Shown piece after piece: positions 2,024 through 23,444 of a stretch of 33,616 nucleotides of DNA. Source of the stretch: a virus; the IMG/VR virus record IMGVR_UViG_3300031787_000485, positions 1-33,616 of that record. The stretch is one strand, 5' to 3'. Each line of letters opens with the position of its first letter. Positions within the stretch are counted from its first letter, which is position 1. Both the position numbers and the translations under genes were made by a program. The notes under the pieces are model-generated. The model did not search any database and was not told the origin of the DNA. It saw nothing but the letters and a program-made list of their open reading frames with translations.

Positions 2024-2898
2024 CAGATCAGCAGTATTACGAAAATGAGGAGAATTGGGGTAGCTATCAGTACGTTAGCCTTTCTGATATTGTCAACAAC
2101 TACATGCTTATTCATGTAGGAAATGACAAGCTAGTAAACAACGTGCGGAGATACGACGTCCTATTCTTCGCAAAAGAAGCGGTGAAAGAGTTAAGTTTCG
2201 ACGCATCAAGAGAAGTAAAAGCAATTGAGTACATAGTAGGAAGTGACTTGAATATGATCCTTCCGCATGACTATGTGAACTACGTCAGACTTTCATTGGA
2301 GGTTGACGGTGTTCTATTCCCTATGTCAGAGAATCTGTCTGAGATATCAGCCAGAGCATATATTCAGGATGGAAACAACGACCTAACTTTCGATATCAAT
2401 GGTAATGTTATTACGGGTGAATCAGAGCTTGATATCAGACGTCTTGACCAGTCTGTATACACAGGACCCGGAGCGTATAATGGTTGCTCAGGCTGGTGTC
2501 TCGATGGTAATTGGTATTTCGGATATCAGATTGGGAGTCGTTATGGACTTGAAACAGACAGAGCGAATTCAAATGGAACCTTTAGGATCAACAAAAAGAC
2601 AGGAGTAATTAACTTCGCAAGCAATATTGTCGGTCAGCGCGTAGTGCTTGAGTACATCACAGATGGACTTGAGGAAGGAGACGCAGGAACGGAGATACAT
2701 AAGATGGCTGAGAAGTATGTATACTCGTACATCACTTGGTGTATCTTAGACAACAAGATAGGCGTTCAGGAATACATCGTTCGTAGAGCTAGAGAAAAGA
2801 AGTCAGCACTTCTAAGAAACCTTAAGATCAGACTAAGTAAGATCAAGGCAGGCGAGCTACTTATGGTAATGAGAGGAAAAGACAAACGAATTAAGTAA
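2020..2898 (+). CDS. Tail tubular protein A-like ring protein (292 aa)
   Basis: It is likely a T7 gp11-like or crAss ring protein that joins the portal complex to the nozzle. The N-terminal part (SYQYVSLSDIVNNYM, about residues 15-29) and a following helix with FFAKEAVKEL resemble the helical half of gp11-type adaptors. The middle is beta-rich, with an aromatic and glycine-rich loop near residues 148-175. The C-terminal helices (about 225-292) are strongly basic and end in KDKRIK, as expected for a face near DNA. It overlaps the previous gene by 4 nt and the next by 1 nt (TAATG), directly upstream of a gp12/nozzle-type gene, the classic A-then-B order in podoviruses. Function is inferred from order and fold-like features; residue-level identity is weak. 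Confidence 0.6.
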   Translation: MTDQQYYENEENWGSYQYVSLSDIVNNYMLIHVGNDKLVNNVRRYDVLFFAKEAVKELSFDASREVKAIEYIVGSDLNMILPHDYVNYVRLSLEVDGVLFPMSENLSEISARAYIQDGNNDLTFDINGNVITGESELDIRRLDQSVYTGPGAYNGCSGWCLDGNWYFGYQIGSRYGLETDRANSNGTFRINKKTGVINFASNIVGQRVVLEYITDGLEEGDAGTEIHKMAEKYVYSYITWCILDNKIGVQEYIVRRAREKKSALLRNLKIRLSKIKAGELLMVMRGKDKRIK

Positions 2899-5800: not shown

Positions 5801-6800
5801 AAATCCAAACTGTGACTACAACGCATGGACATGGGGTAATGGACTTGAGTCAGACCGTATTTACGATGACTTTAACGAGACAACTATCGAGTACTCTCCA
5901 AGAGCTACAACTGTAATTGACAATTATAAGCAGATACGAAATGATGCATCTATTTGTTACAGTGGTATTTATAATGAGAACACTCAGTACAACAGACTGA
6001 ATGAATTCAATTTAAGCCTTGCGAACTTCAAATACTTAGATCGTGAGTTTGGAAGTATTCAGAAGTTACATGCAAGAGATACTGACCTTACCGTATTCCA
6101 AGAGAAAAAGGTGTCAAGGGTTTTATATGGAAAGAATGTATTGTTTGATTCTGCAGGTGGCGGTCAGGTTGCATCTATTCCAGAGGTACTTGGTACTCAA
6201 ATACCTAAGCCTTACGAGTATGGCATAAGTAGAGCACCTGAGTCATTTGCTACTTGGGGAGATCTTATTTGGTTTGCAGATCCAAGAAATGGTGTTGTGA
6301 TACAAATGGAGGGAGACACAATGGTCGAAGTATCGTCATTAGGTATGAAAGACTACTTCAGAGACTTAATGCGCGACAATCCATTCACTCAAAAGTTAGG
6401 TGCTTACGATCCGTACAACCATATGTACTTCATAAGCAACAACTCAGAGAGGTCAATTCCTTGTAACTTATCAATAAGTAGAGAGGTACTAAAAGTTCCA
6501 AAGGACGCTGCAGGATATCTCTTCTTCTCAATTGAATCTGATACCTCATGGACTATATCGTTAGTAAATACTGGAGATGGAACAAACTGGGTAAATGGAT
6601 TTCAAGCTATAGGAAATGGGTCTCAGAATATATTTGGAAATGTATCTCAGAATTTGACTGCATCAAATAGAAGTGTTAATTTTGTGGTTACATATTGTGA
6701 TGGACAGACTGAGACATTTACATTATCCCAAGCTAAAGGAAGAAAGGGCGTACTGGTAACACTGGTATATAGTAATCAAATAGTTAGACAAGACAGGTAA
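2898..6800 (+). CDS. Tail nozzle / tail tubular protein B-like with C-terminal BACON-like domain (1300 aa)
   Basis: The N-terminus has FIQGVMNKDLDERLVPQGQY (residues 8-27), then YRDAQN and an EGSNVGAAQN block. This is the typical opening of podoviral nozzle proteins (T7 gp12, P22 gp10, crAss muzzle/stabilization type). A long beta-rich body follows. A second recognisable nozzle section lies at about 1010-1160, with LANFKYLDREFGSIQKLHA, TDLTVFQEKKVSRVL and YDPYNHMYFIS, propeller-like repeats seen in this family. The last ~110 residues (about 1189-1285) look like a BACON domain: SDTSWTISL, then a Gly-rich linker, N-ASNRSVNFVV and a closing FTLSQA strand. BACON domains are thought to bind carbohydrate or mucin in Bacteroidota proteins and are known in crAss-like phages. 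Residues about 490-780 are AT-richer in DNA and may be an acquired insertion (visual impression). The next gene starts 1 nt after the stop. Confidence 0.8.
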   Translation: MADLKNTFIQGVMNKDLDERLVPQGQYRDAQNITVETSEGSNVGAAQNALGNTLSANIATVSGRQVMNARTIGSVAYEAAGLLYWFVASDYFDGIYEYDETTGTTVRVLQSNKANPNTPSKLNFRHDYLITGVNHIIGPDGNTFLYWTDNYNPPRRVNIKRVKSSTNGIGGYAIDDDRIDIDIDVILEPPMYAPHIEPFSDGSEANNMSEKFLYFAYRYLYVDDQYSSLSPFSGVAFKPDEYNFDYGVGNNKSMTNIYNACKVSFETGNEFVKAVQLVVRDTRSLNVGIVDTYDKDELNALSQISNSATVVFNNNKVLAALPTDQVTRLFDNVPLLAKAQDVIGNRLSYGNYVQFRDIEDCNGDDIDINFSLEVKQPPLEPTTSNPLSTWRSDRDLEFALLYSDDYGRLTTALTCDTNSIYIPPANSTTANQLVLTIRHQAPCWATHYRIAVKQGKSKVYNVFPILYYASGSYRYFLINESDVDKVKVGEYLIFKSDTDGATESNKKYKILEIDSKSANFLGGSQISGVYIKIKVDTISEFPISGITTFSLESTGYGAGANAQFPVLSTFGFVEQPIHYGSGDPQGLIITSQTPISNTSDVRFTIEIVDQSTFKYTSDIDAAGGWTSVSLVQGATNVLSKFGFDICSIQFTQSQYTIGDRWKVNVRSGGNLLGNYFGGVGIPNGSSTWNPGDYGGAIIANKGFTDPILAGAVITMELLEDSLNPSELAPAQQFPPSPSNFENIEEWFIESGAYLEYDQYNKDGVNIKSQGITFRRGSAFVQNTSYTNPQDQIIQGAANQPMYMIVQGFGFQGQDINTVRFKLSVVQSNDLLLCETAPKDTDAEIFHELSQTYPIDGSGNHLVKWQYEDFQYYADANGTYTKLVLLDKSRPHYFTVGDVITVESDDDINFPSGDYTVLYTPDRYTVVLDTPWVGSGPTTGGYIKLSGSLNEDQASGVFTPAIIELNTPANPNCDYNAWTWGNGLESDRIYDDFNETTIEYSPRATTVIDNYKQIRNDASICYSGIYNENTQYNRLNEFNLSLANFKYLDREFGSIQKLHARDTDLTVFQEKKVSRVLYGKNVLFDSAGGGQVASIPEVLGTQIPKPYEYGISRAPESFATWGDLIWFADPRNGVVIQMEGDTMVEVSSLGMKDYFRDLMRDNPFTQKLGAYDPYNHMYFISNNSERSIPCNLSISREVLKVPKDAAGYLFFSIESDTSWTISLVNTGDGTNWVNGFQAIGNGSQNIFGNVSQNLTASNRSVNFVVTYCDGQTETFTLSQAKGRKGVLVTLVYSNQIVRQDR

Positions 6801-6801
6801 T

Positions 6802-9675
6802 ATGATAGCAAATCAATCATTCTCTACAGATGGCGTAACGTACTATGATATAAATAATATCAACTTAACAGAAAGCGGAGTAGCATTATTCGATGCTAAG
6901 ACAGGTATAGGTGGTATTGATTATATGCCTGCAGATGGAGACACTGTGTATGTGTTAGCAGGATCTGGAACTACTAAGGAAGATAGGAAATTTCAGCCTG
7001 GGTTAAACAACAAGGCGTACTACCTTGTTTCTGATATAGAGTACGGTCAGTCAGATAGAGATTCTATTATAGATCAAGCTGTAGAGATTCCCCTTGTGTA
7101 TAACGCTATATCTGGAGGTAGGTATGAAGGGTCTTTTGTATTCTCTAATCCAGACGACCTACCATACCTATACCTGATATGGGATTACTCAGATAATATG
7201 GATAGCGGAACTGTGTCATATACTGGAAATGAAACAGAGAGAATTATAGACTGCGATTTTGGGAGTACACTTGGGAGGGCAGGTCTTAATTATATAGTTG
7301 CTAGTAAGCCAGTAAGGATACAATTAAAGTGGAATGACGTTATTGTAGGCGATACTGGATATGTTGGATTAAACTCAGCAGCCAACTATAACGCTCTTAT
7401 TGCAGCTGGAGTAGATCCTGACGATATAAATTTATCATTTCCATATAACGGTCTTGTAAACAACGGGTCTGGTCAAATAAGATTCAGTAAGTACTTATCA
7501 ACAGCAAATGCTAAGGTATTTGTATCAGCACCATTAAGCAGTAGTATATTTATTATTGAAAGGATAGACGCTGAAAGAACATCCTTTTATCTTGACTCAG
7601 CAGACGGAACTTTATCTAACGTTTGTTCTCAGGTTGCTGACGAGCAGTTTTATCACGATGGAACAGGCACATTGCCAATTAAAGGTGATCGTGTATACGA
7701 GTTCGATGGTGTAAATTATGTCTTGTGGAATGGAAATAACTCGTATCATCAAACAAGTACTACGTCATTAGTAGTACCGCCAGTAAGCGGTGGTACATAT
7801 ATGGCTGTTGATACTAACGGTACAGTATACGATACAGGAGGATGTGACTGCACCGAATTCGCACCACCATTTATTTATCAGGAAGATATAACACTTCAGG
7901 TAGGAAAAAGAACAAGCATCAATTTACTTGCTACAGGTAATCCTACATCATGGGCAATTGTAAATGCCACATGTAATGACTACACTATTACAGGTGGTGA
8001 TAATGGTACAATATACAGCTACACGTCATGTGACGGGCTATCTAAGCGAGTTACCGTGAGTGCTAGCGGAACAGAGACTGTATCAGCAGCAGCTACACCA
8101 ACTGTAATTGGAGGTGGTGGGTCGGCTACATTAGTCGGACCGTCACAGCAGAACATACTTCCTGCAGGAATTACAATAAGTGATACTGGAGTACTATCAG
8201 GAACACCTACAGACTCTTGTAGTTTTACGTTTGATATAGAGTGCGATAACTGCTTTGGTACATCCGTAACTAAGACATTGTCTATATCTGTAAATACAAA
8301 CATACAGTTAAAGCCATTCTTAATCGACCTTGAGAACTTTACAGATACAGGAGATGCAGCATGTGTTGTAAGTTCACCTCTTTACTCTATCATGTATCAT
8401 GACGGGGCAGGGTACATTCCAACTGAAGGAGATCATATCTACAAAGACGACAAAGGAACTGAGGTATTAATGGGCGGAAGTGTATGGTATAATATCGACC
8501 CATCTACTTACTCTATCAAAATCGACGAGTTAGGAAAGGTATGTAGTAAGAATGAGTGCCCTACATCTACAACTACGACAACGACTACTACTACTACAAC
8601 TACAACGACAACACTACCTACTGGCGACTATTTCATTGGCGAGTCGTGCATTAATCCTTTAGTGACTGCGGTAATATTCGATTCCACAACATCAGGTCTT
8701 ATTGTTACAGACACAGTGAAGACTACAGATGGCAACTGTTGGACTATTACATCAACCACTACAGCAACATATCCATACCTATCAATAGAGAATCCAACTG
8801 TTGTTTACGCAGATTGCGACACATGTCTAAATGTTACAACAACTACCACAACGACAACGACAACTACAGCCACTCCAATCACTTCATTTAGTATGGACTC
8901 TGATGGTTTTAGTTCATTTGCCTTAGCATGTGACAACGGAGCAGCACCTTGGACTACATACTACCATAACGGTGTAGGAGCAGTGCCTGCCGTATCTGAC
9001 TTTGTATTTACAAATGCAGGTGGTACAATAATATTTAATGGAGGATCTAAGTGGTATAAAGTATCAACAGGCATAGTAATTCAGATAGGTATTCTCGGTC
9101 AGGTATTAAGTGTTGTTGACTGCTCGACAACTACCACAACAACTACCACTACTGTACCTACATGGTACTACAACTGTATTGAGTGTGGGACTGTATCACC
9201 TACGGTTATATTAAGCCAACAGGCGTTAACTCAGTTAGCATTAGGTACAGTAGTGAAGGCAGTAAATGGAACATGCTATACGATAGACACATACGCAGGT
9301 GGAGGTCCGGCTGTATCAACCATATTATTTACATACGACAACTGTGTAGACTGTCAGGGTATCACAACTACTACTACGACCACAACTACAACTACTAGTA
9401 CTACCACGACAACAACTACTACAACTACAACGACGACGGCAGCGCCTTTAACGAAGGTTTTAGCTAGGTATGGGACTACAAACGTCAATGTATGCTCTGG
9501 AACAATAGGTGAGTACTGGATAGACGGACCGATGGGAGTGTCAGGCAACAATATATATGACGACGCAGCAGGCACATCACTTGCAACAGCTGGGTGGTAT
9601 ATAAAGACCAATCAGTCAACATCGCATGAGTGGGACGGTGCAGACTGGACTGAAATATCAGGTACATGCAGTTAA
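6802..9675 (+). CDS. Modular tail fibre with poly-threonine linkers (957 aa)
   Basis: Residues 1-260 form an N-terminal region that probably attaches to the nozzle encoded just upstream. Residues 262-350 are a first copy of a module with YHDGTGTLPIKGDRVY. Residues about 355-500 are an Ig-like He_PIG-type domain (LQVGKRTSINLLATG, LPAGITISDTGVLSGTPT) interrupted by a ~65-residue insert with paired cysteines. Then follow module A (505-589), 15 Thr, module B (605-678), 11 Thr, module A (690-775), 9 Thr, module B (785-854), 25 residues of Thr with one Ser, and a last A-like module to the end. A modules share YH(D/N)G.G..P...D and GGS.WY; B modules share T..VK..(D/N)G.C(W/Y)TI and a closing DC..C. 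This beads-on-a-string plan suits a receptor-binding fibre. The C-terminus overlaps the glycosyltransferase-like gene by 10 nt. Confidence 0.8.
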   Translation: MIANQSFSTDGVTYYDINNINLTESGVALFDAKTGIGGIDYMPADGDTVYVLAGSGTTKEDRKFQPGLNNKAYYLVSDIEYGQSDRDSIIDQAVEIPLVYNAISGGRYEGSFVFSNPDDLPYLYLIWDYSDNMDSGTVSYTGNETERIIDCDFGSTLGRAGLNYIVASKPVRIQLKWNDVIVGDTGYVGLNSAANYNALIAAGVDPDDINLSFPYNGLVNNGSGQIRFSKYLSTANAKVFVSAPLSSSIFIIERIDAERTSFYLDSADGTLSNVCSQVADEQFYHDGTGTLPIKGDRVYEFDGVNYVLWNGNNSYHQTSTTSLVVPPVSGGTYMAVDTNGTVYDTGGCDCTEFAPPFIYQEDITLQVGKRTSINLLATGNPTSWAIVNATCNDYTITGGDNGTIYSYTSCDGLSKRVTVSASGTETVSAAATPTVIGGGGSATLVGPSQQNILPAGITISDTGVLSGTPTDSCSFTFDIECDNCFGTSVTKTLSISVNTNIQLKPFLIDLENFTDTGDAACVVSSPLYSIMYHDGAGYIPTEGDHIYKDDKGTEVLMGGSVWYNIDPSTYSIKIDELGKVCSKNECPTSTTTTTTTTTTTTTTTLPTGDYFIGESCINPLVTAVIFDSTTSGLIVTDTVKTTDGNCWTITSTTTATYPYLSIENPTVVYADCDTCLNVTTTTTTTTTTTATPITSFSMDSDGFSSFALACDNGAAPWTTYYHNGVGAVPAVSDFVFTNAGGTIIFNGGSKWYKVSTGIVIQIGILGQVLSVVDCSTTTTTTTTTVPTWYYNCIECGTVSPTVILSQQALTQLALGTVVKAVNGTCYTIDTYAGGGPAVSTILFTYDNCVDCQGITTTTTTTTTTTSTTTTTTTTTTTTTAAPLTKVLARYGTTNVNVCSGTIGEYWIDGPMGVSGNNIYDDAAGTSLATAGWYIKTNQSTSHEWDGADWTEISGTCS
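8569..8613 (+). repeat. Poly-Thr linker 1 (15 codons)
   Basis: Fifteen consecutive ACN codons using ACA, ACT and ACG in mixed order join module A to module B of the fibre. The mixed codons show the repeat is kept at protein level, not as a pure DNA microsatellite. Confidence 0.9.
8836..8868 (+). repeat. Poly-Thr linker 2 (11 codons)
   Basis: Eleven consecutive Thr codons in the fibre gene, with ACA, ACT, ACC and ACG mixed, between module B and the second module A. Confidence 0.9.
9127..9153 (+). repeat. Poly-Thr linker 3 (9 codons)
   Basis: Nine consecutive Thr codons (ACA, ACT, ACC) after the cysteine-serine that closes the second A module of the fibre. Confidence 0.9.
9364..9438 (+). repeat. 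Poly-Thr linker 4 (24 Thr with one Ser)
   Basis: Eleven Thr codons, one Ser codon (AGT) and thirteen more Thr codons before the final fibre module. It is the longest linker, and all four ACN codons appear. The complementary strand reads as a long poly-valine frame, which is not a gene. Confidence 0.9.
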
Positions 9676-10596: not shown

Positions 10597-11322
10597 ATGG
10601 CAGACAAGACAATATCATACTCACCCACAGGTAACGGATGGACGTCCTTTTGGTCTTTTATTCCCGACTGGATGGCTGGAATGAATAACACCTTCTACAC
10701 ATGGAAGGATGGAAGTCTGTATAAACATGACACAAATACTGCAAGAAATCAGTTCTACGGCACTAACTATAGCTCTGAGATAACTACCATCTTCAATCAG
10801 GATCCTACCACACTTAAGATGTTCAAGACCGTATCTCTTGAGAGTAATGACACATGGAGTCTCACGTCAACGACTGACTTGAATACAGGAATAATTGACG
10901 ACAGTTGGTTTGTCGATAAGGAAGGGCATTGGTTTGCATTCATCCGTAGAAATACAGGTGATGCTGACCACAAGGCTATATCCACTCAAGGGATTGGTCA
11001 AGTACAGACGTATGCAGCGAACGTAATTACTTTTGTATTTAATATTGGTACATCGATCAGTCAGGGGGATGTTGTTTACAAAGTATCTGGCGGTGCATTA
11101 GTTTTAGTTGGAACAGTAGCGTCTCACGACACGAACTCCATAACACTCGTCTCGGAAATCAGCGCGCCAGCTCCAACTGACATGATCGTGTACGTTAAGT
11201 CTTCTCAGGCTGAGTCTTACGGAGTCCGTGGAGCTTGGATGGAGGTAACAATTACCAACGACAATACGGACGAGGTTGAAATATTTGAAATTAGTTCAAA
11301 TGTTTTTAAATCAAATCCTTGA
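10597..11322 (+). CDS. Structural protein of unknown role (241 aa)
   Basis: The N-terminal part (about 1-60) is rich in Trp, Tyr, Asn and Thr, with TGNGWTSFWSFIPDWM and YTWKDGSLYKHD. I recall similar openings in virion proteins of crAss-like and other Bacteroidota phages, without an assigned role. Residues about 70-115 contain repeated beta strands (SLESNDTWSL, SWFVDKEGHWFAF). Residues about 125-205 look like a small beta barrel with ISQGDVVYKV and DMIVYVKSS. The last 40 residues include a strand pair close to the start of the next promoter. It has no cysteines and no membrane segment. It has its own near-leaderless promoter inside the preceding gene. A tail accessory or hub protein is possible; the role is open. 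Confidence 0.65.
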   Translation: MADKTISYSPTGNGWTSFWSFIPDWMAGMNNTFYTWKDGSLYKHDTNTARNQFYGTNYSSEITTIFNQDPTTLKMFKTVSLESNDTWSLTSTTDLNTGIIDDSWFVDKEGHWFAFIRRNTGDADHKAISTQGIGQVQTYAANVITFVFNIGTSISQGDVVYKVSGGALVLVGTVASHDTNSITLVSEISAPAPTDMIVYVKSSQAESYGVRGAWMEVTITNDNTDEVEIFEISSNVFKSNP

Positions 11323-11365: not shown

Positions 11366-12082
11366 ATGTTCGGACTTATTTCAGCAGGTATCTCATTAGC
11401 AGGATTAGGCATGAGCGCTGTTCAAGCTGTCAAAGAGGGCAGACGTATGAAAGAGGCTCAGGCAAAATCAAACGCAGCACTTCAGGGATACAAAAATATA
11501 CAGGAGCAGAACGCACTCGCGTCACTACAAGCTCCAGACATCTCATCACTACAGTATGATAGAACTCAAAGGGCAATGTCTCAAGGAATTGACGCATTAG
11601 CTCAGACAGGTGCTGAGGGTGCTATTGGTGGTGTAGGTAACGCATTACAAGCTGGTCGAGAGGCTGATCTTGAGACTTCAATGCAGCAAGGTCAACTTAA
11701 TGCAGATACTCAGTTGCTTAAAAAAAGAGAACAGGCTAGGATTAATGAGGCTGCTGTTGGTCGTCAAGCAGATGTTTACGGGTATCAACTTGGTAATGCA
11801 ACACAGCAATATAACGATGCTCAAGCAAATCAGACTGCAGCTATATCGGGTATGGTTGGTCAGTTAGGGTCAGCTGTTGGATTTGCTAAAGAAGATTTCG
11901 ATCCGGCTACAGGAATGTATAAATACAAGAAGACTGGTAATGGCTCAGGTGTAAATAAAGATTCATTCTCGTCTGTATATGGAGCACCTAAACCTAATTA
12001 TACTGGTAGTGTTTCAGGGAACTATGGAACTCCAGTAAATATGGAAGGGTTATCTGGCGGATATAATTGGGGGGGACTTTAA
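11366..12082 (+). CDS. Internal virion / DNA-ejection protein, T7 gp14-like (238 aa)
   Basis: The protein opens with a hydrophobic, glycine-rich helix (MFGLISAGISLAGLGM, residues 1-16) that could insert in a membrane. It continues with long Ala/Gln-rich amphipathic helices (about 25-175), including many Gln and Asn and almost no aromatic residues. The last 50 residues are Gly/Ser/Tyr-rich and disordered-looking. This pattern, the length and the place before two larger internal proteins match the gp14 class, which forms the outer-membrane part of the ejection channel in podoviruses. It is the first gene of the 11366-22676 unit and ends 2 nt before the next start. The assignment comes from composition and order; sequence identity to gp14 is not claimed. 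Confidence 0.65.
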   Translation: MFGLISAGISLAGLGMSAVQAVKEGRRMKEAQAKSNAALQGYKNIQEQNALASLQAPDISSLQYDRTQRAMSQGIDALAQTGAEGAIGGVGNALQAGREADLETSMQQGQLNADTQLLKKREQARINEAAVGRQADVYGYQLGNATQQYNDAQANQTAAISGMVGQLGSAVGFAKEDFDPATGMYKYKKTGNGSGVNKDSFSSVYGAPKPNYTGSVSGNYGTPVNMEGLSGGYNWGGL

Positions 12083-12084
12083 TT

Positions 12085-13626
12085 ATGGCAATACAAGACC
12101 CATTTAGAAACGTAGACTACCAAAGACGTACTGCTGTAGATTGGAACGCCTTAACAGATAAGTTGGGCGCAACTGTAGCTCAAATAGGTACTGACAGAGA
12201 GAAGGCAAGAGAAGAACTTGAGCAGGTATATACTGACACTGTAACTAAATTACAGAAGCCATTAAATCTTGAGAAGCAGTCGCTTGAGTCTCTAGTTATT
12301 GCAGGATCAAATGAGGTGAAGAATAAGTTACTTGACCTTAAGAAGAGAATGTACAACAAGGAGATATCTCCTGCTGACTATAAGAGAGCTGCATCCGGAT
12401 ATCAAGAACATTGGGCAAACTTAGCTGAACAAGTAAAGACAGCCGACGATAGATTTAAGTTATACCAAGACCGTTCGACAATGAATGCAGACGGTATTAT
12501 TGAAGGGTCTGACGCTGAGTCTCACTTGATGAATGAGTACCTAAAGATGGCTGACCTTAATAACAAGAAGGTGGTTGTAGGTAATGACGGATCAATGTAC
12601 TTACAGCAGGTAGGAGAGGATGGTCAACCGGTAGGCGAACTTATTGACTACCGTGATTTTGCACGTCCGGAAAACATGACGATCAATCGAGTGAATCTTG
12701 GTGATACAGTTGACGGAGTTATTGGTAACTGGAAGGAGGTAGATAAATACAGAATGCTTGGACGTGGTGGCGAAGAAACTATCACATCGATCAAGAATCA
12801 GCCTGACTATAAGTTGATGAAGATTAATGCAGCAGAGGCAATAACATCGAATCCACGAATGGCTGTAAGTGTACTTGTTGACAACGGAGTAATTAACGCA
12901 CCTACTTACTACTCATCTGAATCTGAGAAGGACGCAATGTTATCTCAAGCATTAGGAACGGCTAAAGCACAGTTCGCTGCTGCAGGAAAGCAATTCACTG
13001 ATGCTGACAAGAAAGCTATCGAGCTATCATTCGTTAAGTTTGAGAAGACTCCTGCAGGAATACTTGAGCCAATTCTTACGAAAGAACAAATGGTTGCAGC
13101 GAAAGAAAGAGTTGAGCAAGAGATTGATATGCAGATTGAAACTAAGATTCAGGCTAATCCACCTCAGCAGTGGTCAAGTGGTGGTGGTGGAAATAGTGGC
13201 GGTGCCGGTTCTGGAATGGAGAATGACTACAGTAGATACAATGAGATACGCGAAGCTTGGAACACTGGAAACATGGATATCCTAAATAACATGAATCCAA
13301 AATATCGATTCAAGTGGGACTCCAAAAGTAAAAGAGTAAATGTATACAGTATAAACGAGGTTCCGGGTAAAGAGAAGGATGATCCATCAACTTATCAAGA
13401 GGTACCAATAGGTTCAGCTAGTGAGGCAAAAAACCTAGCTCCATACCTGTATAAGTCAACGTCAAAACTAACTCCAGAAGAGTTATTTGAAATAGAAAGA
13501 CAGCAATACAATAAGAAAAATAAATCTACCGACAATTCAGACAAACCTAAAAAGGGGGATGTTGTTAGTGGGTATGTATTTTTAGGAGGGGATCCGTCAA
13601 ATCAAAATAACTGGAAGAAAAAATAA
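12085..13626 (+). CDS. Internal virion / ejection protein, gp15-like position (513 aa)
   Basis: The ATG at 12085 (MAIQDPFRNVDYQ) is chosen over a TTG at 12067 that would overlap the previous gene. Residues 1-125 are long charged helices with coiled-coil character. A beta-containing middle (about 150-225) and more helices follow to about 355. A glycine-rich hinge (SSGGGGNSGGAGSG, about 364-377) separates a C-terminal region (about 380-513) with a polar, Lys/Asn/Ser-rich tail. There are no membrane segments or cysteines. The gene lies between the gp14-like gene and the giant protein gene and is separated from the latter by 5 nt. It probably forms part of the internal core or ejection tunnel (inference from order and helix content). 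Confidence 0.6.
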   Translation: MAIQDPFRNVDYQRRTAVDWNALTDKLGATVAQIGTDREKAREELEQVYTDTVTKLQKPLNLEKQSLESLVIAGSNEVKNKLLDLKKRMYNKEISPADYKRAASGYQEHWANLAEQVKTADDRFKLYQDRSTMNADGIIEGSDAESHLMNEYLKMADLNNKKVVVGNDGSMYLQQVGEDGQPVGELIDYRDFARPENMTINRVNLGDTVDGVIGNWKEVDKYRMLGRGGEETITSIKNQPDYKLMKINAAEAITSNPRMAVSVLVDNGVINAPTYYSSESEKDAMLSQALGTAKAQFAAAGKQFTDADKKAIELSFVKFEKTPAGILEPILTKEQMVAAKERVEQEIDMQIETKIQANPPQQWSSGGGGNSGGAGSGMENDYSRYNEIREAWNTGNMDILNNMNPKYRFKWDSKSKRVNVYSINEVPGKEKDDPSTYQEVPIGSASEAKNLAPYLYKSTSKLTPEELFEIERQQYNKKNKSTDNSDKPKKGDVVSGYVFLGGDPSNQNNWKKK

Positions 13627-13631
13627 TCAGT

Positions 13632-16600
13632 ATGTCAGAAGATAAAAAGCCTTGGGAACAATACAAAAGTGAATCACAAGATAAAAAGCCTTGGGAGCAA
13701 TATAGTGACGTAAAAAAAAAAGAGTCTACGGTATCAAATTCAGGCTCGGATCCAAAAAAATCTTTATCGGCTACTCAACCCAAGAAAGCGTCTGGGCAAT
13801 CGGGATCTTCGTCAAAGCCTGACGGGATATATGTATTCTCAGGTAGAAAGGATGCTACATACAAGAAGCAAGACGGAAATTGGTTCATTGACTTAAATGG
13901 ATCAGGTAAGTTTATTCCTATTGAAAAGAATAAGGAAGAAAGAATAAACATCCTTGAGAAATCATCTGAGCGCATATACAACTCTCCTTTTGAGGAGGTG
14001 AATGCTGAATATAAAAAAGCACCGGTTAAAACTGTAACAGCAAAACCTACAGACGAACAAACAGTTCAACAGAAAGCATTCAGTGAAGACTTCGTAGCAT
14101 TAGATAAGAATGATCCAATAGTTCTTGAGAAGGAAGCTAGAGATGAGCGTCTTGAAAAGACACTGTCTACCTTCAACGAGGAAGTTGTAGGTGCATTAAA
14201 TGAGACCGATTTCAAGAACAATATCAAGAAGGTTCTTCAAGAGAATCCGGAGACAGCTGATATGTTTGATATCGAAGAAACTGGAGTAGGATATAATGCC
14301 ATTCGAGTTCGCAATAAGTACACAGGTGAATTTAAGGATATTAACCTTAACAACTGGTCTGCTGAAAGAGATAAGGACGAGACTGAATTACTTAAGGCTT
14401 TCATTAAGGTAAACTCCAAGTTTTCTGATCTTAGTAAGATGAAGTCCAAGCTCTCCAATTTACAGCAGGAAAGAAAAGATATGTCCGGCATGGATGCTAT
14501 TGATGCTGACAAAGAGATCGCAAGACTGCGTGATGGTATCAAATTAGAGACAAAGCTTAGAAACAACTATGCCCTTGGCGACAAGTATATGGCAGCTGCA
14601 GTTTACGATGAGAACTCCATTAAGAACATGAATGCCAAGATCGGTAGAATCCAAGTTGACTCGATCGACATAAGAGAGCAACAAAAGAGTCTTGATGAGT
14701 GGAAGAATAAAGCTATGGAAGCTGTGGCTTCAGGTAAAATGTCTAAAGAGCAATTCGATACTGAATACTTACCTAGCATAGAGGCAGAACAGGACGCGAT
14801 CACTAAGAAAGCTTCAGGGATGATGAGTGAGATAAATACTGTCATGTCTGACTTTGATGATGCAGAGACTATTGCAGGATTAAATACTTTAACTCAGTCA
14901 GAGAGAGGTAACGTACTTACTGGTGCAGGGAAGTCTTTCATGCAAGGTGTTGAGTCTGTTGTTAGATATACATTCGAGAATACTTCAGGGCTCGATCCTA
15001 TAGAGAAGGGAACTATTGCAGATCAGCTATCAGCTGGTATTGTTACTGATGAGTACTTATCGTCAGCTGACAGAAACTCATTTGAGAGCGCGATATTTGG
15101 AATTACAAATAGTCTTGGATCTGCAGCAGCTGGGACACTTCTTGTCAGAAATCCAACTGCAGGACTATTTGCTTCTTCTTATATGAACATGAAGGATCAA
15201 ATGGTTGGACCTGAGTGGAATGATGTTCCTGAGTACGAGAAAATCTTGCTATCATCAACATATGGTATAGCGATATCTGCACTTGAGAAGTTCGGTTTAG
15301 ATCGAATGTTCTCTAAGACTCCAATAGGAAAGAATGCGATGAATTGGATTATGGCTAACACATTTAAGTCATTGCCAAAAGGTGCAACAAAAGAAGTTCT
15401 TGAAGGTACTATAAATGAGAATATAAAGTTAGCGATCAGCAGAGGTATACTTAATACTGCTGGAGGTATGTTGGTTGAGGGTGGAACTGAAGGACTTCAA
15501 GAGGCTGCTGACTACACAATTAAAGGTGTATATAACGAGATTAAAGGAAAGGATTTATTTGATACGCCAAAAACAATCGGTGAAGCTCTAAGTGGTATTG
15601 GTGAGGCGTCAAAACTCGGAATGATTGGAGGTGGAATGATGACTGGTATTACTCAAGCAGTAAACGTTCCGAAAGACATGATGACATCACAGCAGTTTGA
15701 TGTTGCCGTGAATGCTATTACTAATCAGAACTTAAAAGACATATTCAAGACTACATTAAAAGGTAAGGTTCTTTCAGGGGAAATAACAAAAGACGATGCG
15801 CTTAAGCAAGTTAATGCAATGCGATCTATGGAAGGAACTCTTGATAAGATACCTGACTTTATAGCTGCTGAGAAGAAGTATGACGCATTTAAATTAATTA
15901 GCGAAAGAGATCGTCTTGAGTCAGAGATTACTGGATACGAGCCTGAATTAGTTGTCGCACAGAAAGAAAGAATCAAAGAAATAAATACAGAACTACAAAA
16001 TATCAGTAAGAATGCCATTCAAGAGCAAACAACAAGTGAAGTACCTGTACAGCCAGAAGCCGGAGTTGGCGAAGAAGTGGTCGAAGGAGAATCCAAAGCA
16101 GAACCTCAAGTCGTTACCGAAGAAGGTCAAGAAGAAGTAGTTATTGATAAACCAACTATTGCGAAAAATGCAACGGTTGAACTTGACAGAGTTAAGGCTG
16201 TAGACCTTGAATCTGAGGACGGTGCTACATTTAATTTGGATGGAACTAAGTATGAAGGCGGTGGACTTATTGTTCCAGTCGCGAGCACTAATACAACTAT
16301 TGAAGAGGTAACTACTGAAATGATTGCTGACTTCGTTGAAGCTAACTCAAGTAAAATTGGAGACAAGAATACAGTTAAAGTTGGAATCTATAAGTTTCCT
16401 AATAGCAACAAGGTATCGATTGATCTAAATGTGGTAGCTCCAGAGTCATCTCGTGAGCAGGCTATTGAGTTCGGAAAGATGGCAGATCAGGAGTCATTAT
16501 TTGACTTATCTACATTTGAGAACGTAAAGACTGGTGGTACCGGATCAAATCCTACTACATTTACGGATGCACAATTTAAAGAGATTGCAAAAGCATTAAA

Positions 16601-19600
16601 TGAAGGACGTGTACCTAACGTATTTACGCAACAGGCTGTTACGCAAAACGAAGTAACGTTAGAAAACTTTACTGAACTTGAGGCTCAGGCAGCGCAGGAT
16701 AACAACAGTGAGCGCATCAAGACGTTAAGAGCTGCTCGAATGGTTACGAAAGCACTTAAGGGAGTAAAGGTATTCATCCATAACTCACCTGAAGAGTACC
16801 AGCAGGCATTAGCTAACGCATCAGGCGACTCAATTGATACTATCACGGCAGAGGAAACAGAAGGACGTTCGGCAGGTCAGTACGTCAATGGTGAAATCCA
16901 TATAGACGGTACGATCGGATCTGCTCGTACAGTATACCATGAAGCCTTCCATGACGCAATCCTTAAATCCGGGCTTGCTGTCGATATGGCTAAAGGTCTG
17001 TCTAAAATTATTTCAGATAAGAACTTGCGTTCTCAAATCAATGAGTTTATCAATCGTTACGATAACGCTGAACAGAATGAGGAGATGATTGCCGAACTTG
17101 GTGCGATCATGGCTGAAGCAGAGGTTGAACTGACGACTACTAAACTACAGCAATTCAAGCAGTTAATTAATAAGTTAGCTCAGAAGTTAGGTCTTCCAGC
17201 AATCCTTCCTGCAGCAGCAGACCGTCAGCAAGTTGTTGACTTTATTAACAGCATGTCTAAGAATTTACGGACAGGTAAAGCTGTTACTGAAGGCGTAACT
17301 ACCACAATAAAACCAGTAGGGCGTAAGTCAAGAAAAGTTTCCTTTAAAGGAAACTACGATCTATCTTTTGTACAAGAGTCTGATATTATTGATTTCAATT
17401 CATTAGTTGATGATATTGTAGCTAAAGATCAGAAGGTTTGGTTTTGGGTTGCAGATCAGCTTGGTAGAGGTTATTACTTTGATGAAATGCTAAACGGACA
17501 GCATTATTTGGATGCAGGACCGTCATACGCACTTGATCCTGAGAATAGATCTAAAGGTATTATCTGGGCTTCAGGTATGGCTAAAAAGTCTATCGAGAAG
17601 AATATAGCTAACAGTGATTACATCTTCATTATTTCAGGAAGCCCAGACAAGTCAAAGTTATTCAATAAATCTGTTACAGGACTAGTTAAGAATAGAATTG
17701 AGAAGAATATAACGTTCAAGAAATTCAAATCATCACTATTAAAAGCAAATCCACCAAAGGGATTAAGAGAGATACTTGAGGCGTACAATAGTTTTGAAGA
17801 TCTACTTATGGGTCCGGACAGAAAGAATTTCATGAATGAAGTAAACGTTCAGAGATCCAAAAAAGGAACTGAGGCTAGAGCATTACTTGAGAAATATGGT
17901 GCATTCATTAATGAGCAAGACTTAAGAGATGGATTCTTTGCTGATAACGGATTCGAGCAAGGAGATGTTATGTTGGTATTGAAGCCAACTGAGGTTGGTG
18001 GCAAGTCAGCTCACTCTACTTATGAGAGCGATATTCTTGGAGAAGTGGTTGGTGTTCCAGACATAGTTGTTAATTCATATGACTTAATGCCTGACGAGGT
18101 TGCTTCTAAGTTTAAGAACGAAATGAATAGAGCGCAACAGTCTCAGATTGTGGCACCTTACGGCTCAGGAGTAAAGAGTATTAAAAGACAAAAACAACTA
18201 TCACCTAAAGTAGCATCAAAACTTACTGAAGATGGTAACGGTAACTATGTATTCCAACATTGGAGTTCAGAGAAACGTGATGTAATCAAGCCCGGAACAG
18301 GTCAGAACAGGATTACTGGAAGAGATGAAGCAGCAGCATTAAGTGCTGTCGGTGGCATCGCTCAGTATTACACAATGAAGGATCAATCTGAAACTGGTAC
18401 TGGAAACGTGTTACATACCGTACTTATTCCAATGGATAAGGTATACGATGCGAATGAAGATCCGATGAACTTCGAATCAGAAGCTCGTAAGTTATTTGAC
18501 GAAGTACGTCCGGGTCAGGCATTCAATGAGGACTACAGAGTTGCATTTATAACTAAGGTAGCTAATCAGAACGGTTACGACATGACGGTAACTCCTTGGA
18601 GAAATACTGAACTGCGCGCTCAAACTACTTTGGAACTTACTCCTGAAAAGAAGAATGTAGATTTTAAGGAAAGACAGAAAGAAGGTTATAGCGTAGGTGA
18701 TGACGTAATTGTTTACGGATCAGAGGCTAAGATCACTGAAGTTGATGGTAATGTGCTTACATTTAAGGGTAGTAGTATGTCTGGATCGATTGACGTATCT
18801 AAGCAAGGACGGCTTATCCGTAAGAAACAAAAGTCTACAAGCAATCAAGCCGTAATTAAAGCCAAGGAGAAGTACGACCTGTCGATCAAGCGTGGTAACA
18901 GCACTGCTCAGGCAAGAGAGTCTGCGATCAATGACCTAAAGAAGAGTGACTGGTACAAGAATGCTGACGATATAAGCAGAGAGGATGCTGTAAGGGATTT
19001 AAGAAGTAAGTTAGGTCTTAAGGAAAAGAAGGCACCGTCTGTAGCTAAAATTACAGGTAAGCCTAAAGACAAGAAGGTGATTGTGAACGAACGTACTGCA
19101 AGAAATACTCAGCTTAGACTTGAGGCTAAAGCTGCTCGTGATTCACAGATGGACTTAAAGCAGAAGCAGCGCGCGTTAGTTGTGGCTATCAATCAGATGA
19201 AGCGTGGTGGACTTATAACAGCAAATCAGGCAGCAGCACTTGCAAAAAGACTGGCATACGTTAATGTAGACAACCCGATCATGGTTGAGCGATTCTTACA
19301 GTACGCAGACCGACTATTCGCTGATGCTGAGTACTACGCCAAACTGAATAACGCCCGGTCATTACAACGTAAGATAAAGGGTGCTATAAAAAATAATAAA
19401 CTTCAGGCAACAACTGTATCTACAGCGAAGGCATTCTCGAAGATCAACCCATCACTTGTTGAGAGCATTGATGAGTACATCGAGATGGCTGACAAAGTAA
19501 TGAACGCAGTTAAGCCTTCAAGACAGACGTCAGATTTAGCAGGTGATTTGAAGACTGCAATGGACTTCAATGAGGTTGGTGAGTACACTGACAGAGCTAT

Positions 19601-22600
19601 TGAGTTCGAGAATGAGTACAGAAAGAATGAATTACTGTCTATCTACAACGACTTAGCTGATGCAAAGGTCATCACTAAAGACATGACGATCGAGCAAATG
19701 AAAGACATTATTGCCGGACTTGATACTGATACTGACGCTAAGACTAAAATGACTCCGGAACAAAAGAAGGAGTTTATTATGAACTGGTTGAATGAGACAG
19801 TAAATACATACCGTCCTATCATTCAGTCAATACTAAAGGGTGTGGATCCGTTCACAGGTGAGTCAGTTACACTGACCGACAAGAAGCAGGAGATCATGCG
19901 CGAGTTCTTGAAGCTTGATGTTACACAGATGGACGTTCGTGACGCAATGGCTGTAGTTGAGGCTATGGATAACTTCATTACGAATAAAGTAACAGACGGA
20001 CTTGAGCCAATCATAAAGGATTATGTAGGTAAGCAAAATGTCAAGGCATTGAAAGACTCAGGGTTCACTACTAAGTCAATGCATACGTTCGGTAAAGAAA
20101 ATGCTAAAATGAACTTCGGTAAGTACTGGGTTAGGCAAATGATGTCATTAAAGACTGCTACTGACTTGGTATTTAGAGGCGTAAAGAACGCACAGAAGAT
20201 AACAAAGGATATGGGTCTTACTGCGTATGAGAATGGAGTTGCTCTTGCAAATAGACTATGGAATAACGACATCGATACATACTACAGTCTATTTGGAAAA
20301 CTAAAGGCAAACGGTGAAAACTTTATGACAGCTAAAAATATCTACGAGAGAGGTATGTACGCTGCATTAAAAAGAACCGTTGCAGGGGATCAGGAGGCTC
20401 AAGATGCTGAGCTTAAGCGAAAGATTAAGTTGATTAACGACAGTATTGCTACGTTGCTGGAGGGAGATTACAAGCAGAAGGAGATGGCTAAAATGTACAC
20501 CGAGGTGGCAGAGAAGTTAGGCATCAACGAGGAGGGAGTTACAATGCTTGACATTGACTCAAGAGTTGATCCTAATAATAGAAAGGCTGTTAATTGGTGG
20601 GTTCAGAAATGGGCTGACAACTATAACGAACTTGCGGACGTAAGTCAGAACGTGTATAACACCATCCTTGAGAGAGATATGTTCTATACGCCAGACAAGT
20701 TCTCTACTGTAACACAATCAAAAGAATCAGTTCAAGACGTTGTAGAGAACAACACCGGTGCGTTCGGGCAGTTTCTAGAGTACACATATAACAAGAAGTC
20801 AGGTGTACTAATGGCATCCAATAAAACGTCATCAATGGCTGAAGGTAGATTTATTGACCTTAACTTCGACATGAATAACTCCAAGTCACTGAAGGCTGCA
20901 TTTGTGGATATGAAGACTGCATCCGCTATCCGTCAGATTAGTGGGTTCCTAAAATCGAAAGATTGGAAGTCGGTAATGACAGATCGTAACGAAAGAGAAG
21001 TATTCCAAACTAAGGTGAATAACTACATCCTTCGAAGTAGAGGTAAGGCAACTGGTACAATAGAGAATGACTACTTCCAAGCCTTAGAAAAGGCTGGGCG
21101 TATTTGGGCTTCAATGGGTGCATCTAAGGTATTAGGTAGTCCACTGCAAGCTGCCAAGCAGACTATACCGGTAATGATTAACACCATCATAAATGCAGGA
21201 CGATTTGATGTTATTACTAGCAGAGAACAGAATGATTGGGTATCTAAGATTGGTAGAGGAATATCAAACAGAGGTCTTGAGTCTCAGTCAGGATTTGAGG
21301 ATGCTAACAAATTGTTAGAAGAAGCAGTAAATAGCAATAAAGCTGTTAAGATTTTAACATGGATCGATACACAAAATACAAGGGTTCTTAAGACATTCTT
21401 AGCTAAACCCGATGTATTTGTAGCTAGATCATCCTTTATCTCGTACTACAAGCAGTACATGAGTCAGGAAGGATTATCGACAGATATTGACTTCAGCCGT
21501 CCAGAAGATGCAAACCAAGACGCGTTAGACTATGCGCAGCGAATGGTTGACCGTCAGCAGAACGTATCTGATAACGACATGGCTGGTGAATTCATGGCAT
21601 CAAAGGATCCGCTTAGAAAATTAGTAAAGAACGTCGTGTTTCCATTTGCTTCATTTGCTATTAATCAGAAGTCTAGGATGTTTACTGACTTAGCTACACT
21701 AAGAAGAGAGGCGTCGTTAGAAGATAAGGTAGTTGCAATTAGATCTCTTGGCGGACTTCTCACTGAGATGATTACGTTTAGTCTTATCGCTTGGGGTATC
21801 AAGGCTGGAATTGTAGCTATAGCTGGTTCAATTGCTCCTGCAGCTCCTGCAGATGAAGAGGAAGAAGAAAAGCAATTCGACCGTCAACTTGGATATGTGT
21901 TTGGTAGATTCGCAACGGACGTATTGTCTCCTGCACCGATAGCTGACGAGTTGGTAGTTCCTGCAATAGATATGTTATGGGAGGAAATAAACTACAAAAT
22001 GAAGTCATCATCTAGCGAAATTGAGGATGCATTATCTGCCTATAATGAAGCTAGAGAAGAAAAAGGTCAGAGAGCTATTACTGGCAAGGAGGCTGAAAGA
22101 TGGAAAGATGCTAAGATTGAAGAGAAGAGATTTAAAATACTTAAGTATGACGCTGATGGAGTAGGAGGTGGTGTGTATGGAATAACGCTACAGAAGCTAA
22201 TAGAGTTAGGAGAATCTTACGACGTAGCATTCAATGGTGAGTACACTCAAGATTTCAATGGTAAGGAGCAAACAAAATACTTACTACCGGAAGACAGACA
22301 AATATTAAAGTCGTTATGGTATGGAAATGCAATGTATACATTCCTATGGGCACCGCCAGAGGTACCATCACTCAACAGACGAATAGAGAACAACATCAAG
22401 AAGTCAAGCTCTATATCCGAGAAGAAGTACGACACATATAACGAGGTGAAGGCTGAGAAGGGTAGAAATCTAAATAAGGTGGAAACGTTCTTGGTAAAGG
22501 AAATGGGAGGCACAAGATCGCAGTCTGGAACCGAGAGAGTACTTGAGGAGATCGAATGGATCGAAAAGAACGGAGGTCTACAAAATCAAAAACAGATGGA

Positions 22601-22676
22601 TAAATACATCGAGATATTTGAGAGAGACGGAAGTGTAGGAATGAGTGACCTACAGAAGATCCAAAAGTTGAAGTAA
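13632..22676 (+). CDS. Giant polyvalent internal virion protein with zinc metallopeptidase motif (3014 aa)
   Basis: It holds the gp16-like place, last and largest in the ejection operon. Visible parts in order: DKKPWEQY twice (residues 4-11, 17-24); coiled helices (about 110-420); Gly/Ala-rich hydrophobic helices (about 425-680) that may cross a membrane; an acidic Glu-rich linker (about 790-840); a zincin domain with YHEAFH (H1103, E1104, H1107) and NEEMIAE (1149-1155), where E1151 or E1155 may be the third zinc ligand; an unassigned block with WFWVADQLGRG and GPSYALDPENRSKG (about 1265-1310); a block starting FQHWSS (H1543) with YYTMKD near 1580 that may be an ADP-ribosyltransferase-like domain; long charged helices (about 1740-2500); a PLQAAKQ and FPFASFAINQK region (about 2503-2680); and a hydrophobic helix (about 2705-2735). 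It may be ejected to open the envelope or alter host proteins. I saw no DxDGD RNA polymerase motif and no lysozyme motif. Confidence 0.75.
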   Translation: MSEDKKPWEQYKSESQDKKPWEQYSDVKKKESTVSNSGSDPKKSLSATQPKKASGQSGSSSKPDGIYVFSGRKDATYKKQDGNWFIDLNGSGKFIPIEKNKEERINILEKSSERIYNSPFEEVNAEYKKAPVKTVTAKPTDEQTVQQKAFSEDFVALDKNDPIVLEKEARDERLEKTLSTFNEEVVGALNETDFKNNIKKVLQENPETADMFDIEETGVGYNAIRVRNKYTGEFKDINLNNWSAERDKDETELLKAFIKVNSKFSDLSKMKSKLSNLQQERKDMSGMDAIDADKEIARLRDGIKLETKLRNNYALGDKYMAAAVYDENSIKNMNAKIGRIQVDSIDIREQQKSLDEWKNKAMEAVASGKMSKEQFDTEYLPSIEAEQDAITKKASGMMSEINTVMSDFDDAETIAGLNTLTQSERGNVLTGAGKSFMQGVESVVRYTFENTSGLDPIEKGTIADQLSAGIVTDEYLSSADRNSFESAIFGITNSLGSAAAGTLLVRNPTAGLFASSYMNMKDQMVGPEWNDVPEYEKILLSSTYGIAISALEKFGLDRMFSKTPIGKNAMNWIMANTFKSLPKGATKEVLEGTINENIKLAISRGILNTAGGMLVEGGTEGLQEAADYTIKGVYNEIKGKDLFDTPKTIGEALSGIGEASKLGMIGGGMMTGITQAVNVPKDMMTSQQFDVAVNAITNQNLKDIFKTTLKGKVLSGEITKDDALKQVNAMRSMEGTLDKIPDFIAAEKKYDAFKLISERDRLESEITGYEPELVVAQKERIKEINTELQNISKNAIQEQTTSEVPVQPEAGVGEEVVEGESKAEPQVVTEEGQEEVVIDKPTIAKNATVELDRVKAVDLESEDGATFNLDGTKYEGGGLIVPVASTNTTIEEVTTEMIADFVEANSSKIGDKNTVKVGIYKFPNSNKVSIDLNVVAPESSREQAIEFGKMADQESLFDLSTFENVKTGGTGSNPTTFTDAQFKEIAKALNEGRVPNVFTQQAVTQNEVTLENFTELEAQAAQDNNSERIKTLRAARMVTKALKGVKVFIHNSPEEYQQALANASGDSIDTITAEETEGRSAGQYVNGEIHIDGTIGSARTVYHEAFHDAILKSGLAVDMAKGLSKIISDKNLRSQINEFINRYDNAEQNEEMIAELGAIMAEAEVELTTTKLQQFKQLINKLAQKLGLPAILPAAADRQQVVDFINSMSKNLRTGKAVTEGVTTTIKPVGRKSRKVSFKGNYDLSFVQESDIIDFNSLVDDIVAKDQKVWFWVADQLGRGYYFDEMLNGQHYLDAGPSYALDPENRSKGIIWASGMAKKSIEKNIANSDYIFIISGSPDKSKLFNKSVTGLVKNRIEKNITFKKFKSSLLKANPPKGLREILEAYNSFEDLLMGPDRKNFMNEVNVQRSKKGTEARALLEKYGAFINEQDLRDGFFADNGFEQGDVMLVLKPTEVGGKSAHSTYESDILGEVVGVPDIVVNSYDLMPDEVASKFKNEMNRAQQSQIVAPYGSGVKSIKRQKQLSPKVASKLTEDGNGNYVFQHWSSEKRDVIKPGTGQNRITGRDEAAALSAVGGIAQYYTMKDQSETGTGNVLHTVLIPMDKVYDANEDPMNFESEARKLFDEVRPGQAFNEDYRVAFITKVANQNGYDMTVTPWRNTELRAQTTLELTPEKKNVDFKERQKEGYSVGDDVIVYGSEAKITEVDGNVLTFKGSSMSGSIDVSKQGRLIRKKQKSTSNQAVIKAKEKYDLSIKRGNSTAQARESAINDLKKSDWYKNADDISREDAVRDLRSKLGLKEKKAPSVAKITGKPKDKKVIVNERTARNTQLRLEAKAARDSQMDLKQKQRALVVAINQMKRGGLITANQAAALAKRLAYVNVDNPIMVERFLQYADRLFADAEYYAKLNNARSLQRKIKGAIKNNKLQATTVSTAKAFSKINPSLVESIDEYIEMADKVMNAVKPSRQTSDLAGDLKTAMDFNEVGEYTDRAIEFENEYRKNELLSIYNDLADAKVITKDMTIEQMKDIIAGLDTDTDAKTKMTPEQKKEFIMNWLNETVNTYRPIIQSILKGVDPFTGESVTLTDKKQEIMREFLKLDVTQMDVRDAMAVVEAMDNFITNKVTDGLEPIIKDYVGKQNVKALKDSGFTTKSMHTFGKENAKMNFGKYWVRQMMSLKTATDLVFRGVKNAQKITKDMGLTAYENGVALANRLWNNDIDTYYSLFGKLKANGENFMTAKNIYERGMYAALKRTVAGDQEAQDAELKRKIKLINDSIATLLEGDYKQKEMAKMYTEVAEKLGINEEGVTMLDIDSRVDPNNRKAVNWWVQKWADNYNELADVSQNVYNTILERDMFYTPDKFSTVTQSKESVQDVVENNTGAFGQFLEYTYNKKSGVLMASNKTSSMAEGRFIDLNFDMNNSKSLKAAFVDMKTASAIRQISGFLKSKDWKSVMTDRNEREVFQTKVNNYILRSRGKATGTIENDYFQALEKAGRIWASMGASKVLGSPLQAAKQTIPVMINTIINAGRFDVITSREQNDWVSKIGRGISNRGLESQSGFEDANKLLEEAVNSNKAVKILTWIDTQNTRVLKTFLAKPDVFVARSSFISYYKQYMSQEGLSTDIDFSRPEDANQDALDYAQRMVDRQQNVSDNDMAGEFMASKDPLRKLVKNVVFPFASFAINQKSRMFTDLATLRREASLEDKVVAIRSLGGLLTEMITFSLIAWGIKAGIVAIAGSIAPAAPADEEEEEKQFDRQLGYVFGRFATDVLSPAPIADELVVPAIDMLWEEINYKMKSSSSEIEDALSAYNEAREEKGQRAITGKEAERWKDAKIEEKRFKILKYDADGVGGGVYGITLQKLIELGESYDVAFNGEYTQDFNGKEQTKYLLPEDRQILKSLWYGNAMYTFLWAPPEVPSLNRRIENNIKKSSSISEKKYDTYNEVKAEKGRNLNKVETFLVKEMGGTRSQSGTERVLEEIEWIEKNGGLQNQKQMDKYIEIFERDGSVGMSDLQKIQKLK
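13639..13703 (+). repeat. 39-nt tandem repeat encoding DKKPWEQY twice
   Basis: AAGATAAAAAGCCTTGGGA occurs at 13639-13657 and again at 13678-13696, a period of 39 nt or 13 codons at the very start of the giant gene. The shared reading continues to the codons for QY, with one synonymous change. Confidence 0.85.
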
Positions 22677-22736: not shown

Positions 22737-23444
22737 TTATGCAAATATGAATTTTGTTTTATTTTTTATATTACCAACAAGCATTGCCCTTAAATTGTTT
22801 GGGTTTACGTTGTTATATATTGACGCATCATTTACGTTGTAATAGAATATACCAGATTCAATATCTAAAACAATTCTAGACCTAGTATTATTAAATCCAG
22901 AGAATTTTTCAATTAAGGAATTCTTGAGCATGAGCTTAGTCTCATCAGACATCTTTCTTCCATGTTTATGTTTCCCTGACTTTATTTTTGATTCATTTAT
23001 TTTAGCGATCCATTCTGACGTAAAAACTCTTCCTTTCATTTTTTTAGACATATACACCTTCTCTTCATCTGTCTTACTTACCCCATACATAGGATTCTTA
23101 GATCCTATTTTGGATTCGGATAATTTTTTAGACGTTTCCTTAGAGATAATTCTCGGTGTTTTATCTGTCTCTGTCAGCATTGAATTTAAACCATTTGGAG
23201 CTAATGAACTATAATAATCCTGCCAGTACCTTTCTCTTACGTTCATGTCTTCAAATCGGCATTCTTCTATAATTTCAAATAAGTGATTGTCTACGCCATA
23301 TTTTTTGAGTGAATTCAACAATACTAATTGTGTTTGACAACTCATTCTCTTGTACTGTTTTAGTCTCTTGTCGAAATTCCTACTCTGACCAATATATATT
23401 TTATTGGACGGTGATTTTATCATATATATAACACACTTATGCAT
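22737..23444 (-). CDS. GIY-YIG homing endonuclease with NUMOD-type DNA-binding repeats (235 aa)
   Basis: The N-terminal nuclease domain (1-90) has the GIY equivalent VIY (5-7), YIG (17-19), a conserved Arg at R27 and the catalytic Glu candidate E71 in RERYWQDYY. Two NUMOD3-like repeats follow (about 103-122 with SKIGSKNPMYG, and about 130-165 with KKMKGR, SKIKSGKHKHGRKMSDETK). An IENR1/NUMOD1-like segment (about 188-235) has SGIFYYNVNDAS. This is the usual plan of free-standing T4 Seg-like and intron-type GIY-YIG enzymes: cleave DNA near a target gene and spread by repair. It sits at the very end of the replication unit, 2 nt after the stop of the phosphoesterase gene, and is visibly more AT-rich than its neighbours, which fits recent insertion. 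No intron or interon boundary is visible in the neighbouring gene, so it looks free-standing. Confidence 0.85.
   Translation of the reverse strand: MHKCVIYMIKSPSNKIYIGQSRNFDKRLKQYKRMSCQTQLVLLNSLKKYGVDNHLFEIIEECRFEDMNVRERYWQDYYSSLAPNGLNSMLTETDKTPRIISKETSKKLSESKIGSKNPMYGVSKTDEEKVYMSKKMKGRVFTSEWIAKINESKIKSGKHKHGRKMSDETKLMLKNSLIEKFSGFNNTRSRIVLDIESGIFYYNVNDASIYNNVNPNNLRAMLVGNIKNKTKFIFA

Follow-up and report, generated by a model that had tools for sequence, protein, structure and literature searches.

The window analysed here is a linear IMG/VR virus record (IMGVR_UViG_3300031787_000485) of 33,616 bases, for the first 25 kb of which we found no close DNA-level relative in the phage collection. At positions 13632-22676 of its plus strand, a genuine open reading frame that starts with ATG encodes a protein of 3014 residues with no cysteine and nine histidines. 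The motifs pointed out in the initial annotation all lie at the residues quoted there: YHEAFH at 1102-1107, NEEMIAE from 1149, WFWVADQ from 1270, FQHWSS from 1541 and YYTMKD from 1579. With so few histidines, the number of HExxH motifs expected by chance in this protein is about 0.002. Pfam, PHROG and PDB sequence searches with the whole protein and with its domains returned nothing significant. The plus-strand genes upstream match PHROG virion structural proteins. Downstream, on the minus strand, lie among others genes for exonucleases, a helicase, a primase, a single-strand-binding protein and, directly after the giant gene, a GIY-YIG/NUMOD3 homing endonuclease (22737-23444). We found no experiments on this phage in the literature. 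Flavobacterium, Cellulophaga, Maribacter and Tenacibaculum are the hosts of its nearest relatives in culture, which makes a Bacteroidota host probable.

The giant gene is the last one in a late virion operon that is syntenic with that of Cellulophaga phage phi18:3, in whose record gp112-115, gp120, gp121 and gp123 are annotated as structural from MS/MS. By blastp, and in the third case also by a match to PHROG 14478, the plus-strand genes at 1277-2023 (248 aa), 2020-2898 (292 aa) and 2898-6800 (1300 aa) encode virion structural proteins homologous to gp112, gp113 and gp114, and the 241-aa product of 10597-11322 (plus strand) is homologous to gp115 (34%, 2.6e-46). They are followed on the same strand by genes for a 238-aa protein (11366-12082) and a 519-aa protein (12067-13626), both without cysteine, which by position correspond to gp120 and gp121 and are probably the small, gp14-like and the gp15-like ejection partners of the giant protein; the latter takes the position of gp123. 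A 957-aa late protein encoded at 6802-9675 (plus strand), possibly a tail fibre, has 25 cysteines, in contrast to the cysteine-free proteins after it. The MS/MS identification of gp123 is no direct proof that the giant is packaged, because gp123 has no HExxH and resembles the giant family marginally at best (13 bits). A homologue of the giant, elemovirus gp21, is annotated as structural; our literature search found no virion proteomics for elemoviruses.

The absence of cysteine extends to the relatives of the giant. In 63 complete giants we counted 0.076 cysteines per 1000 residues, with none at all in 52, against 7.5 per 1000 in the remaining plus-strand ORFs of these loci, a depletion of about 100-fold. 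Known ejected proteins of other phages gave the same picture, although the Poisson probabilities attached to such counts treat sites as independent and are indicative only: two cysteines against 31 expected in T7 gp14/15/16/6.7, none against 16 in the P22 ejected proteins, none against 30 in N4 gp50-52, and one against 22 and three against 23 in the crAss001 cargo proteins gp47 and gp50, respectively. P1 DarB was depleted more weakly (nine against 26), and among the non-ejected proteins of at least 400 aa from these phages, 4/34 were cysteine-free. In N4-like virion RNA polymerases, the lack of cysteine has been tied to passage through the tail and periplasm (PMC2784036, PMC3715699, PMC3915230), and the earlier mentions that we found in the literature concern only virion RNA polymerases and internal proteins of Zobellviridae. 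We note that cysteine is almost absent from the ejected proteins of T7, P22, N4, crAss001 and Flavobacteriia phages, and not only from N4-like polymerases (window 11366-22676; L104, L105, L107-L112).

Synteny with virion proteins identified by MS/MS, together with the total lack of cysteine, indirectly supports packaging and ejection of the 3014-aa protein, which we consider likely. In the initial annotation the protein was placed where podoviruses have gp16 and described as over twice as long. The length comparison is correct for T7 gp16 (1318 aa), and the operon position and composition are indeed gp16-like, but homology was not found, the profile scores against T7 gp16 being at chance level. 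More broadly, the T7 gp14/gp15/gp16 and P22 gp7/gp20/gp16 sets resemble the window set in consisting of three consecutive, (almost) cysteine-free late-operon proteins, and differ from it in that they have no detectable homology to the window proteins and in that Pfam and PHROGs gave no lytic transglycosylase match for the window protein.

To describe the family, we used four queries, namely the complete protein, its WFWVADQ block, its ADP-ribosyltransferase (ART) region and its C-terminal region, in scans of viral contigs, which gave loci L001-L005 and L008-L102; after joining loci by domain profiles, 84 distinct proteins or fragments were obtained, among which domain proportions reflect the queries used. 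The complete zincin-bearing giants have 2155-3694 aa (median 2920). The zincin is present in 75 of the 84 and the WFWVADQ block in most, whereas the ART domain may follow the zincin, precede it or be absent, and most relatives are without it. Modules swapped in among relatives include RadC, a C39 peptidase, LPD14, LPD23, DUF3293, DUF7178 and a transglycosylase-like domain (L003 6878-13600; relatives). In 84,980 prokaryote genomes the WFWVADQ block and this ART domain gave pattern matches but no relatives, which fits virulent phages. The giants form a phage-only family, absent from Pfam and PHROGs and new with respect to the libraries searched, with a zincin core and shuffled neighbours. Elemovirus gp21 (Flavobacterium phage elemoA_7-9A, YP_010108907, 3694 aa; L006 10885-21969) shares with the window giant the zincin, the synteny, the complete lack of cysteine and an ART region that is 60% identical over 194 residues; it differs in having a divergent region in place of the WFWVADQ block, with DUF3293 annotated in it. 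It also has a second ART-like looking motif (YRGTS...) upstream of the zincin.

The zincin domain, of the gluzincin type, covers residues 1031-1215 (16722-17276, plus strand). The initial annotation had proposed a gluzincin-like site made of YHEAFH, here the HEAFH motif (residues 1103-1107, 16938-16952), and NEEMIAE about 45 residues later. This stands, with a correction of the glutamate, as the third ligand is E1151, 48 residues after H1103, with E1155 four residues further (E1151 to E1155, 17082-17096). H1103, E1104, H1107 and E1151 are identical in 75/75 distinct relatives and E1155 in 73/75. Structure models of the giant were made for residues 1026-1520 (zincin and WFWVADQ block) and 1520-1735 (ART and barrel). 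The former, with a mean pLDDT of 85, shows in order an N-terminal helix, three strands, the HExxH helix (1098-1112) and the helix with the glutamate (1150-1166), and this matches the published description of metallopeptidases (MPTases) of polyvalent proteins, with an N-terminal helix, beta-strands, the HExxH helix and then a downstream Glu helix (PMC5512222), and so supports the assignment. Sub-threshold matches to Pfam metallopeptidase families (M78 at 9e-4, DUF5700, SprT-like, M91) were seen in several members of the family. Foldseek of the two-domain model against the PDB returned no significant match, structural comparison of the same model gave zincin rows only at Z 3.3-4.9, a weak backing from solved structures, and profile comparison with the zincins of N4 gp50 and P1 DdrB was at chance level in hhalign, with weak hmmsearch matches at HExxH. 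The predicted topology and the invariant ligands make a zincin fold in this region very probable. Apart from this, the MS-identified crAss001 cargo protein gp47 (L111 26120-33145) has the same YHEAFH motif as the window protein near its residue 2157, with a weak zincin-profile match there.

As to what such a zincin would cut, both self-processing and action on the host have been proposed for polyvalent MPTases (PMC5512222). The zincin may be an effector whose substrates lie in the host, in its envelope or among its proteins, and not a self-processing protease, and the N4 virion RNA polymerase, which is packaged uncut (PMC5512222), would agree with such a role. Yet the near-universal presence of the zincin as a hub (75/84 distinct proteins) whose neighbours are swapped fits a generic processing role better, and we regard a host-directed zincin as rather unlikely; the giant itself may well be the substrate.

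The ART-fold domain was found where the initial annotation had suggested it, at residues 1535-1674 (18234-18653, plus strand), and the fold can be assigned there with high confidence from the model and its structural matches. The model of residues 1520-1735, built from 33 sequences, has a mean pLDDT of 90 and a pTM of 0.78, and its best PDB match was 6kyf (Foldseek E 4.4e-3, probability 0.97; VIA Z 7.5, rmsd 3.9, 120 residues aligned, model residues 16-155). A structural Z below 8 was taken as not enough alone; this match was accepted because it was the only row covering the domain among the matches listed (the first tens) and because the protein, AcrIF11, is itself an ADP-ribosyltransferase, as predicted for the domain; its activity is abolished by D115A (PMC12421852). 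In the BFVD, the model matched phage proteins with a large polyvalent-associated (LPD) annotation (E 3e-8) and, at E 3e-3, a protein of phage Mutine that is annotated as ART-PolyVal-like. The C-terminal part of the same model, residues 1682-1735 (18675-18836, plus strand), is predicted from the model and structural comparison to be a small SH3/Tudor/KOW-like barrel.

H1543 and Y1580 are identical in 33/33 sequences and lie in modelled strands 1 (1538-1545) and 2 (1577-1580), as do the characteristic His and Tyr of the Tox-ART-HYD2 clade; they are invariant candidate counterparts of the active-site His and Tyr of the AcrIF11 family. In an AcrIF11 homologue, mutation of H20/Y46 or of D146/E147 abolishes activity (PMC12421852). 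Membership in the HYD2 clade fails one defining feature, since the strand-5 Asp is not conserved: several relatives have Pro, Gly, Lys or Leu in place of D1650, and Q1664 in the strand after it is Gln in 29/32, Glu in 2/32 and His in 1/32. In this the domain also differs from AcrIF11, a small stand-alone protein of ~15% identity, whose D115 has no conserved counterpart in the giant. Without a conserved third catalytic acid, activity is less certain than the fold, and we lean only slightly towards a catalytically active ART.

The atypical third ART residue bears on a further possibility, namely that the giant, as an analogue of gp16, serves chiefly for structure or as a conduit in ejection. The zincin would then do no more than mature the polyprotein while the virion is assembled, and the ART fold would be a degenerate remnant kept for binding. 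That most relatives do without this ART agrees with this, as does the example of P1 DdrB, which is cleaved prior to its packaging (PMC5512222). The C-terminal part also has one strongly hydrophobic segment, the only one detected in the giant by a hydropathy scan (approximately residues 2713-2736, 21768-21839, plus strand), for which membrane insertion is possible. However, E1566, E1587, D1610 and R1662, like H1543 and Y1580, are invariant or nearly so down to 28% identity, which suggests retained chemistry, and the ART occurs at several architectural places, as expected of an active module. We consider the mainly structural role a serious alternative, though clearly the less probable one compared with a polyvalent protein carrying effector modules.

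Between the zincin and the ART lies the WFWVADQ block (residues 1236-1515, 17337-18176, plus strand), a phage-only domain and the most conserved part of the giant, with more than 30 near-invariant residues in 59 sequences. Conservation of this degree would suggest that the block binds something specific or acts as an enzyme. No library match was found for the block. In structural comparison, the best rows were YTH and ASCH domains at Z of 6.6 or less, which is below the trusted level, with YTH making up nine of the best 11; profile-profile comparison with YTH sequences, checked letter by letter against PDB chains, was negative, and the EVE family was not found in the window. That the block is a phage-only relative of the YTH/EVE/ASCH modified-base-binding domains seems improbable to us; if it were true, protease, ADP-ribosyltransferase and recognition of modified nucleic acid would be united in one entering molecule. 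A similarity to RavD (38 residues, E 0.018) was judged to be at chance level. Comparison of the elemovirus-type region after the zincin with the block profile gave no support for a relation. Where giants have no recognisable block (L074, L075, L076, L079, L089, L092, L097 and L100), WAS[ST] or a similar motif is often seen about 100 residues after the zincin, as in the block.

Large size, lack of cysteine, a zincin and sometimes an ART would also be expected of an N4-type virion RNA polymerase that has diverged beyond recognition. N4-like polymerases of this kind are ~3500 aa, cysteine-free and carry HExxH (PMC12633501, PMC2784036), and the StenR_269 enzyme was called from size and cysteine absence (PMC10747016). 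N4 gp50 in particular is, like the window protein, a giant without cysteine and with an HExxH domain, and it is ejected. Nevertheless, an RNA polymerase Pfam match was found in none of 21 giants and an RNA polymerase PHROG in none of the 16 scanned; motif B was not matched, though by a simple pattern that does not recover N4 gp50 either, and the sole T/DxxGR match falls in the WFWVADQ block. These sequence scans thus found no polymerase motifs in place in the window protein, which has no significant sequence similarity to gp50, and profile similarity to the polymerase part of gp50 or to crAss001 gp49/gp50 did not go beyond chance. A diverged polymerase therefore appears very unlikely.

Among known classes, the 3014-aa protein fits best with the polyvalent proteins (Iyer et al. 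2017, PMC5512222), where it and its relatives make up a new family, and it should not be classed as a T7 gp16 homologue. It combines a zincin, an ART fold and an SH3-like barrel in one polypeptide encoded among late virion genes, and in being multidomain and late-operon it is like the polyvalent proteins with MPTase and Tox-ART-HYD2 domains, for example the virion RNA polymerase of Roseovarius Plymouth podovirus 1. The zincin topology, the placing of the ART His and Tyr in the first and second strands, and the presence of LPD14 and LPD23 in other family members are also shared, whereas the giant differs in that no RNA polymerase module was found, in its ART without the conserved strand-5 Asp and in having the WFWVADQ domain. 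The 'multi-effector first strike' suggested in the initial annotation corresponds to the published polyvalent-protein concept.

Taken together, the giant is probably a polyvalent ejection protein, with zincin and ART-fold modules, of a lytic and probably short-tailed Bacteroidota phage. It would be packaged in the head with its 238- and 519-aa partners and would be threaded, as a mostly unfolded chain, through portal and tail and then over the periplasm, which we propose as the reason for its lack of cysteine, and it would then refold in or at the host cell. The zincin would most likely cut the polyprotein itself, or host proteins, and so free the modules, while the ART-fold domain would most likely use NAD+ to modify a host protein or other target; the remaining modules, the WFWVADQ block included, would vary between phages.

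Our results suggest that lack of cysteine marks podovirus-type ejection proteins in general, which would offer a cheap way to find them. They also bring to light a large unannotated family of probable entry effectors in Bacteroidota phages, whose takeover strategies are little known, and cultured relatives of the family (Elemovirus) exist, giving a test system.
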